A stretch of DNA of 64,000 nt. It comes from Microcaldota archaeon. Lineage in GTDB: Archaea > Micrarchaeota > Micrarchaeia > Anstonellales > Bilamarchaeaceae. The stretch lies in the NCBI GenBank assembly GCA_022627495.1, contig JAKEGJ010000022.1, positions 1-64,000 on the forward strand, in the 5' to 3' direction. Shown here piece by piece: positions 4,406-44,585 of this stretch. Numbering within the stretch: the first letter of the stretch is position 1; every line of letters starts with the position of its first letter. The position numbers were made by a program, and so were the translations under genes. The notes beneath the pieces are model-generated. The model saw nothing but the letters and a program-made list of their open reading frames with translations. It was not told where the DNA came from and did no database searches.

Positions 4406-4461
4406 GCCCGCAGGCAAATAGGGGGCTTCGAACGATATCGAAGAATAGCTGTGGGGAGTGA

Positions 4462-4505
4462 GAAGCCCCCGACGACCTTCAGGTGCGAAGCACCTGGAGG
4501 GATTT
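4462..4505. repeat. 44-bp direct repeat copy 2, hairpin-forming
   Basis: Identical to 4362-4405; its GAAGCCCCCGACGA edge matches the tRNA-Thr 3' terminus at 4659-4670. Confidence 0.9.
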
Positions 4506-4658
4506 TTCGCGATGTCAAGGTCGACCGATAAATCGACGACTCGATTTATGGTCCATTGATCGTAACGACGATCAATCGGACGCATCGACCTTGAGCATGC
4601 TCGCGAACGGATTGCCGTTCGCGACAAGCGAAAAAGAGGGGGCTCGAATGAAGATGAG

Positions 4659-4818
4659 AGCCCCCGACGAGATTTGAACTCGTGACCTCGTCCTTACCAA
4701 GGACGCGCGCTACCGTTGCACTGCGCTTTCTATTTGGAACGCCCAAAATGCCGAAGGCATTTTCAACGGCTCGTTTTTGGGCGCTTTTTCCTAAAAAGCG
4801 CAACTGCGCTACAGGGGC
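4659..4818 (-). tRNA. tRNA-Thr(GGT) with apparent noncanonical intron in the D-arm
   Basis: Minus strand GCCCCTG-TA-GCGC... ...GGTAGCGC-G-CGTCC-TTGGTAA-GGACG-AGGTC-ACGAG-TTCAAAT-CTCGT-CGGGGGC-T. The acceptor pairs 7/7 counting one T-G wobble, and the anticodon arm and T arm pair perfectly; discriminator U. About 80-90 extra nt lie inside the D-arm. Confidence 0.85.
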
Positions 4819-21907: not shown

Positions 21908-21971
21908 CCAATTTTCGAGCGCTCGCTATCCGCGGGCTAAAGCCCGCGGTATTTATCGCTCGCGCTCTTTA
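21908..21971 (-). repeat. nested palindrome downstream of the IS200-like pseudogene (probable IS right end)
   Basis: Minus strand GAGCGCGAGCGATAAATACCGCGGGCTTTAGCCCGCGGATAGCGAGCGCTC; CCGCGGGC-TTTA-GCCCGCGG hairpin within a longer imperfect stem. Confidence 0.6.
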
Positions 21972-22421
21972 GGAAAAGAACGTGGTTAGCTGCATCTGGC
22001 CGGCTTCTGGATTTATCAGCCGCTCATGGTGGACGTCCTGAGCGCCGATGTATCGTTTGATGACAGCATCAGTCATAGGACCGACAGTCCCGTAGTACTT
22101 GAACCGACTCCAGAAGCTTCCTCTAGGATACCTTTTACACAGCCCTGATCAGGCATCGAAAATCCGTTTTGCTGAGACTCCTTTTAGCAATTGTACGGCG
22201 TAGGAAACAGACAACTTGGCAGGGATGTGCACCATCAGATGCACATGATCCAGCTGGAATTCAAGCTCTTCAATCTTTATCCCGTATTTCTGCTCAACTT
22301 CACGGAATGCATCCGTGCATATTCTCGTTGTATGCTCGTTCCGGAATACTTTATACCTGCATTTCGATGCAAAAACCAGGTGATACAAATTCCTTCTTAA
22401 ATCCTGAGTTCCACTAGACAT
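21969..22421 (-). pseudogene. tnpA: IS200/IS605-family TnpA (Y1 HUH transposase) with in-frame TGA
   Basis: MSSGTQDLRRNLYHLVFASKCRYKVFR...LDHVHLMVHIP...AKRIFDA*SGLCKRYPRGSFWSRFKYYGTVGPMTDAVIKRYI. The frame stays open on both sides of a single TGA at 22149-22151. Confidence 0.85.
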
Positions 22422-22479
22422 CTGCAACAGCTCCGGCAGCGGACCTTTCCTGAAGGTTTGTGTGCCGCCCCTCTGGGGC

Positions 22480-22596
22480 GGCGCGCCCGCTGCCAAGGCT
22501 ATTTCTGACGATAAGAATTAGAACTTTGAAGAAAAAGTATGGGCCGATTCACCTGCTCGGCTGAAGCCGGCAGTACTCTCGGCCGTTTTTTTCAAT
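22480..22596 (+). ncRNA. candidate structured RNA / intergenic repeat, copy 1
   Basis: Near-identical to 36191-36364 apart from an apical insertion. GGGCCGA...TCTCGGCC outer stem, CTGC.CGGCT/AGCCG.GCAG inner stem, then TTTTTTT. Confidence 0.55.
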
Positions 22597-44179: not shown

Positions 44180-44277
44180 TGTTTTATATTTATTATTTTT
44201 CCGTATTCTTCCGAGTTATAGGTCAAACCGGCTGATGTTTGATCAAACTTTGACCGGAGATTCTCTTGGTAAAGTTT

Positions 44278-44349
44278 GGGCTCGTAGCTCAGCAGCAGAG
44301 CGCTCCCTTGGCATGGGAGAGGCCGGGGGTGCGAGTCCCCCCGAGTCCA
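44278..44349 (+). tRNA. tRNA-Ala(GGC)
   Basis: GGGCTCGTAGCTCAGCAGCAGAGCGCTCCCTTGGCATGGGAGAGGCCGGGGGTGCGAGTCCCCCCGAGTCCA: complete cloverleaf, G3:U70 identity pair, anticodon GGC. Confidence 0.95.
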
Positions 44350-44585
44350 TAATCCGTATGTCTAGTTTTCCAGTTCCTGAGTTTAGACTCAGGGATTATG
44401 GACGAAAAGTGAACGAGCGGAGCGATGTTCACGACGAGTCCAATTTCCCGTTGTGTCCAGTTTCCAGTCTTGAGGTTCGCCTCGCGGAAATTGGACTGTT
44501 TTGACCCGTAGGTCAAAGACGAGTCCATTTCTCATAGGTCTAGTGTTCCGCGTCCTGAGTTTAGCCGCAGGCATAATTGGAATTT
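44342..44585 (+). repeat. three diverged ~62-nt stem-loop units starting at the tRNA-Ala 3' end
   Basis: Units at 44342-44403, 44435-44497 and ~44520-44585 all begin CGAGTCCA. 11-bp terminal stems GTCCATAATCC/GGATTATGGAC and GTCCAATTTCC/GGAAATTGGAC differ compensatorily; unit 3 is degenerate. Confidence 0.75.

Follow-up and report, generated by a model that had tools for sequence, protein, structure and literature searches.

The window, by which we mean the whole 64,000-nucleotide stretch analyzed here, belongs to a 1.45-Mb MAG of an uncultured archaeon (29 contigs; G000 below) and holds two tRNA genes, tRNA-Ala(GGC) and tRNA-Thr(GGT), each directly followed by an array built on copies of the 3' end of the tRNA itself (Table 1). 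Behind tRNA-Ala(GGC), the 8-nt sequence CGAGTCCA occurs three times. Its first copy is the 3' strand of the tRNA plus the discriminator and supplies X, the 5' arm of the unit 1 hairpin; the other two stand at the starts of units 2 and 3. The hairpins are 59 nt long and the units are spaced 93 and 85 nt apart, the array being made up of two complete units and a decayed third unit that starts with an extra copy of X. A covariance model built from 18 training units picks exactly these three places at tRNA-Ala in the window, and the array region is more stable than each of 200 shuffled sequences (fold z = -4.67). The only Rfam matches in the window are to the tRNAs, the units being without a match above the gathering score. 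A preliminary description of the stretch had given the coordinates, the three CGAGTCCA starts, both perfect 11-bp stems and the spacer hairpins as we find them, and had called for the region to be folded. Of its three units of ~62 nt, the three homologous starts stand, but the hairpins are shorter and the third unit lacks most of its closing stem.

The second array (~4665-4421, minus strand) lies directly downstream of tRNA-Thr(GGT) and follows the same plan as the tRNA-Ala array. Rfam matches only part of this tRNA because the gene bears an intron. The perfect short palindromes of the window cluster around tRNA-Thr.

Table 1. Features of the window, numbered from its first nucleotide
Feature	Position	Strand	Basis
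tRNA-Thr(GGT), intron-bearing	4667-4722	-	Rfam RF00005, 40.8 bits; anticodon loop by inspection
Hairpin GGGGGCTC...GAGCCCCC: 5' arm, tRNA-Thr 3' end; 3' arm, its exact complement; different body	4638-4665	-	sequence
Second copy of tRNA-Thr 3' end (GGGGGCTTC) with its own complement GAAGCCCCC	4421-4470	-	sequence
Y1 (IS200/IS605-like) transposase gene, one in-frame stop	22038-22385	-
Two perfect 8-bp hairpins flanking the Y1 transposase gene (palindromes)	21930-21949, 22464-22482
tRNA-Ala(GGC), intronless	44278-44349	+	ARAGORN (44277-44350); Rfam RF00005, 62.1 bits
First copy of CGAGTCCA, last 8 nt of tRNA-Ala(GGC)	44342-44349	+
Unit 1 hairpin: X GTCCATAATCC, 37-nt body, X' GGATTATGGAC; perfect 11-bp stem, 44345-44355 with 44393-44403	44345-44403	+	covariance model, 58.1 bits
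Spacer hairpin 1: GTGAAC (44409-44414) and GTTCAC (44427-44432), flanked by GAAAA and GA	44404-44434	+	sequence, folding
X2, first extra copy of the tRNA 3' terminus, CGAGTCCA	44435-44442	+	sequence
Unit 2 hairpin: GTCCAATTTCC, 37-nt body, GGAAATTGGAC; perfect 11-bp stem, 44438-44448 with 44486-44496	44438-44496	+	covariance model, 71.5 bits
Spacer hairpin 2: TTTGACC (44500-44506) and GGTCAAA (44511-44517)	44497-44519	+	sequence, folding
Unit 3: begins with CGAGTCCA (44520), closing stem degenerate	44520-44581	+	covariance model, 32.9 bits for 44524-44581

The earlier suggestion that the outer stem could compete with folding of the acceptor stem holds in silico. In the predicted minimum free energy structure of pre-tRNA-Ala with unit 1 and X2, X1 (the X of unit 1) pairs with its complement X1' and the 5' strand of the acceptor pairs with X2 (-77.3 kcal/mol), whereas the same precursor with a normal acceptor stem reaches -66.8 kcal/mol, i.e., 10.5 kcal/mol worse. 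Because the precursor folds that much better with X1 locked by X1', a cost is predicted: either X2 would rescue tRNA-Ala folding, or the RNA would be cut before X' is made.

A repeat family at the 3' ends of structured RNA genes

A BLAST search within the same genome returned copies on four further contigs; all of them immediately follow tRNA genes, which often contain introns. Eighteen units taken from nine RNA loci of four genomes can be aligned with almost no gaps as X(11) + ATTTGTTTCCAGTTTCCAGTCTTGAGTTTTGCCTCA(n) + X'(11), and the covariance model trained on them (the units were partly found by their stems, and its E-values are rough) finds 18 copies in this genome and matches in 20 of 118 relatives, 11 genomes within the genus plus other genera of the family, for a family total of ~95 units. 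Named Kae1 matches are to the DeMMO3 'archaeon', 'Candidatus Micrarchaeota' and 'Candidatus ainarchaeum' MAGs. Sorted by upstream neighbor, the 95 units stand directly behind a T-arm (39), another unit (26), SRP RNA (5) or something else (25); read by eye, nearly all of these last 25 belong to tRNAs with a T-loop intron or follow a decayed unit, and three have no assigned host. Alignment and covariance model agree that the units are homologous, structured and tied to tRNA ends, and the model search proposed in the preliminary description turns up copies behind many other tRNA genes here and in relatives, in keeping with its option of a hairpin element that targets tRNA 3' ends. Random decay of the stems, or an alignment no better than shuffled sequence, was looked for and did not occur.

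The array had also been presented as a matter of tRNA-Ala, or of tRNA only, and this had to be given up when the same unit appeared at SRP RNA 3' ends. Rfam confirmed SRP RNA hosts at four loci (L082, L089, L093 and L112); run on 20 other unit-bearing loci, it gave tRNA and SRP matches and none to the units. Since SRP RNA carries units, what defines the site is not the tRNA itself but the 3' end of a structured RNA gene. In this genome, the RNase P RNA (L141) follows the same plan with an unrelated body, in the order CCCCTCACTTGA ... TCAAGTGGGG ... hairpin ... repeat of the RNA 3' end; no unit was found at 5S rRNA. This RNase P RNA gene (G000:C21:16191-16519, minus strand) also contains internal GTTTCCAGTTTCC-type inserts and has a ~150-bp tandem repeat behind its 3' end.

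In other genera of the order, a complement spanning the junction was found in only 1 of 25 testable tRNA loci (7 nt, L170), by a test that demands a reverse complement exactly across the tRNA/trailer junction, misses introns and collapsed units, catches only 4 of 20 tRNA loci in G000 and serves only as a contrast with those genera. Unit-rich genomes tend to yield few tRNAs under a plain tRNA model (5 in G001, 6 in G004, 8 in G013 and 16 in G000, with 35 in the unit-free G003), but G015 has two tRNAs and no unit. One to three introns are seen in tRNA genes at L002 (G000:C20), L008 (C15), L009 (C23), L010 (C25) and L036, with palindromes like CCTTTTAGGAAAAGG; the T-loop intron of the tRNA-Ala on C20 fits a bulge-helix-bulge (TGCG-AGT / CGCA-GAT). 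The heptamer-like core word of the unit body, GTTYCCRGTTTCC, occurs 31 times in this genome against once for its backward control, partly away from RNA genes (e.g., G000:C3:81129-81380 and C14:3660-3693).

A stem arm matched to its host

Each unit runs in the order X, conserved 37-nt body, X' (the exact complement of X), spacer hairpin and a fresh ~6-base copy of the RNA end. The outer stem is formed by the last 4-6 nt of the host RNA together with ~6 nt of trailer and, in tRNA and SRP precursors, extends across the point of 3' cleavage. The final four bases of X' complement the unit's own X in 69 of 95 units, compared to 2% against units with a different X. In the tRNA-Ala array X' reads GGAC where the tRNA's own 5' strand is GGGC (G3.U70), so that X' complements the 3' strand, and opposite G67 the X' of the tRNA-Thr array has C, the tRNA 5' strand U; these two cases, G3.U70 and U6.G67, rule out that X' was copied from the 5' side of the acceptor. 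X2 is located 23-38 nt past X' in most units and matches the host over ~6 nt up to the discriminator at ~0.9-0.99 identity, with ~0.5 on either side, a plateau somewhat inflated because X2 positions were partly chosen by this match, and position -2, inside the chosen interval, reaches only 0.65. Among 15 cases in which a unit's own X (X1) is not identical to X2, X' fits X1 in 14. Pairing of X' with X2 as the main maintained structure is rejected, since X' tracks X1.

The inverted arms vary with host and unit yet remain complementary, and no constant terminal inverted repeat runs across copies. A feature like a target-site duplication is present, the last ~6 nt of the host RNA being found again after each unit. 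Identity of the unit with a K-turn, an H/ACA RNA or a C/D box was considered by eye, with no consistent match.

Several other repeats were seen at RNA genes. At L015 and L027, tRNAs with the 3' end GGTCGCA are followed by longer repeated pieces (14-18 nt of T-arm and acceptor), and ahead of each piece stands its reverse complement (GGGAATTG...CAATTCCC). The 5' flanks of tRNAs in this genome (L013, L014, L019, L021, L022 and L026) hold arrays of the tRNA's own first 7-15 nt, and behind several of these copies come a hairpin and then the exact complement (in L026, for instance, GCTGGGGTCG-hairpin-CCCCAGC recurs ahead of the tRNA); these 5' copy arrays mirror those on the 3' side. Tandem repeats starting CCCCTGCA, with no complementary arm, lie behind the 3' end of tRNA-Leu(TAG) in a distant Micrarchaeota MAG (L049, ~2000-2250).

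Covariation and turnover of the units

The outer stem is 94.9% paired, with double changes at 9 of 11 pairs, in a set partly chosen by its stems. Across nine hand-picked pairs of orthologous units, not all independent and with bodies that differ by roughly 20-35%, 77 stem pairs are unchanged, 16 have changed on both sides and still pair, two have changed on one side and four are broken; the last comparison is cross-host and the His pair is misaligned, which accounts for all four broken pairs. Slow compensatory evolution normally passes through G-U intermediates. In the unit stems, G-T makes up 2.7% of standard pairs; the figure for 40 acceptor stems from this group is 8.2%. Template switching can replace both arms in a single event, and published work shows that it creates and maintains RNA stems (PMC8794818). 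Joint arm changes and scarce G-U fit templated copying better than slow compensatory selection. Because template switching changes both arms at once and G-U intermediates are few, covariation is not by itself proof of function; the preliminary description had taken compensatory change to imply selection for structure, a step that falls away when template switching suffices for an excess of double over single changes with G-U rare.

G-T outnumbers A-C mismatches by 27 to 8 in all units and by 16 to 3 in the high-scoring set, a modest excess that hints at constraint at the RNA level on the transcribed strand but could also come from transcription-linked C-to-T mutation or deamination, or from the model's own pair scores. 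Whole units slightly prefer folding of the sense strand, less so than shuffled controls, and the comparison of sense with antisense is thus not decisive.

Relatives differ at the locus where an LSm gene is followed by tRNA-Ala. DeMMO3_13 carries three units that differ in order and sequence, STA_33 shows a collapsed one (GTCCATAATCAATGGAC, then the spacer hairpin, then CAAGTCCA), and no unit is present in STA_81. This empty orthologous site shows gain or loss of units; differences between the arrays of relatives could reflect loss or recombination among units.

Origin of the arrays

The explanation that we find best, with belief and doubt about evenly balanced, is that the array belongs to a family, specific to this lineage, of short palindromic (double-hairpin) elements that propagate and occupy the mature 3' ends of genes for structured RNAs. 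It is seen directly that the body is homologous across hosts, that the units lie at RNA 3' ends with a complement matched to the host and a direct copy of its end, that units have been gained or lost at orthologous loci, and that both arms change jointly. Because the body is common to tRNA and SRP genes and to several genera, it must spread or be selected. An insertion would leave, in order, the host 3' end, the element (TTTTCC-body-GGAAAA), a ~5-nt complement of the host end, the spacer hairpin and a second ~6-nt copy of the host end, behind which the next unit could insert, giving rise to arrays. The complementary arm would arise, and stay perfect, because the adjacent strand serves as its template (through fold-back or template switching in DNA synthesis) rather than through slow compensatory substitution, and the body would move between RNA genes as a mobile sequence. 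The cell probably tolerates the element, as all that follows the discriminator base would be cut off in RNA processing. Against a propagating family supplied with its arms in this way, template switching alone leaves the shared, near-constant-length 37-nt body unexplained, and transfer or selection is needed. We propose only tentatively, and with more doubt than belief, that the units represent a new class of element, one that goes into the mature ends of structured RNAs (those of tRNA, SRP RNA and perhaps RNase P RNA) and writes the complement of its target into itself, probably by fold-back copying primed or templated at the 3' end of the RNA gene, which would give the host-specific arm. A search for reverse transcriptases (RVT_1) found none in G000 or G009, the genomes with most copies, and a search for Y1 transposases found one in G000, with an in-frame stop, and none in G009 or G004. 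A reverse transcriptase or Y1 transposase as the common driver was rejected, since their presence does not track the arrays.

A propagating palindromic family has several close likenesses elsewhere. Double-hairpin elements and palindromic repeats in the mitochondria of fungi, algae and sponges are small, non-coding, built of two adjacent hairpins, dispersed, of high turnover and presumed mobile. The archaeal units share each of these traits, but their copies all lie at the mature 3' ends of structured RNAs with one arm rewritten to match, and we know of no mitochondrial palindromic family with a host-matched arm. Like prokaryotic MITEs, the units are short and non-coding, with terminal inverted repeats and target duplication; unlike in MITEs, the terminal repeats match the target rather than fixed ends of an element, and a parent transposase was not found among the RVT_1 and Y1 families searched. 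The perfect stems, made or repaired in one event with arms that change together, are like the template-switch hairpins of Monttinen and Loytynoja (2022, PMC8794818), which lie inside RNA genes, whereas the units share a conserved body at many loci and form arrays behind genes. A literature search of open-access papers found no report of such arrays.

The main rival to a mobile element, and one that we consider unlikely, is a hairpin that functions as RNA where the 3' end is processed. Such a host-beneficial device would use the X/X' hairpin over the mature 3' end of the precursor to control its exposure or cutting, with the array as redundancy and a downstream X able to replace X1. The stem does span the 3' cleavage site in both tRNA and SRP RNA precursors, the predicted pre-tRNA-Ala fold pairs X1 with X1' and the acceptor with X2, the body is conserved between genera, G-T exceeds A-C, and at the SRP locus the stem and spacer hairpin are identical in G000 and G009 despite a different body. 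However, one orthologous tRNA-Ala lacks the unit, as do many congeners by this model, and the device would thus be dispensable; spacer hairpins fold equally well on either strand (46 vs 43), G-U intermediates are few, and 5S rRNA has no unit. A 37-nt body of constant length, common to different RNAs and genera, is what makes a pure mutational by-product rather improbable, as does its absence from most sampled tRNA genes in the order's other genera. By that account, replication template switching at structured, heavily transcribed RNA genes would repeatedly make X' and an extra X, with neither mobility nor function. It could draw on the recurrence of the X-X'-hairpin-X2 plan around unrelated bodies at tRNA-Thr and RNase P RNA, on the several tRNA 5' flanks in which 5'-end copies are followed by their exact complement, and on the joint changes of the arms.

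Two further explanations invoke elements already known at archaeal tRNA genes. We regard as very improbable an intron-like insertion in which everything from X1 to the spacer would be removed from the RNA and X2 would complete the acceptor stem, as in the predicted fold with X2 in the acceptor and the unit as two extra arms. Introns of the bulge-helix-bulge type are present in these genomes, and their transposition is reported in Thermoproteales (Fujishima 2010, cited in PMC3293823). The units resemble them as several short insertions at tRNA genes with sequence homologous across tRNAs. Unlike those introns, the units follow the discriminator base without interrupting the mature RNA and also occur behind SRP RNA. 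Inspected by eye, their borders form a continuous 11-bp helix with no bulge-helix-bulge (3-nt bulge, 4 bp, 3-nt bulge), and the copies that follow X1 have often degenerated ahead of their final ~6 nt, which marks X1, right after the T-stem, as the authentic end. Least probable of all, in our judgment, are residual attachment sites of plasmids or viruses integrated at tRNA 3' ends, an option of the preliminary description that leaves X' unexplained. Partial repetition of the tRNA 3'-terminal sequence downstream of the gene is the classic footprint of archaeal integrases (PMC3293823, PMC9897764), but here the repeats are only ~6 nt long, lie ~90 nt apart in tandem arrays with a complementary arm and a homologous body, and occur at SRP RNA too. 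Between copies there is nothing longer than a hairpin, and neither an integrated element nor an integrase was found.

Implications

These arrays provide a clear case in which textbook covariation evidence likely misleads: covariation is perfect, yet the pattern indicates copying as much as selection, because the arms change jointly, pass through few G-U pairs and match the neighboring gene. Should the target serve as template for the arms, this would be a new mode of insertion specific to the ends of RNA genes. For annotation, arrays and introns probably help account for the seemingly incomplete tRNA sets of such genomes. Since unit-rich genomes tend to yield the fewest tRNAs in plain models, propagation of such elements, if true, would bear on how tRNA genes in DPANN archaea get broken up and on how tRNA maturation continues in such cells.
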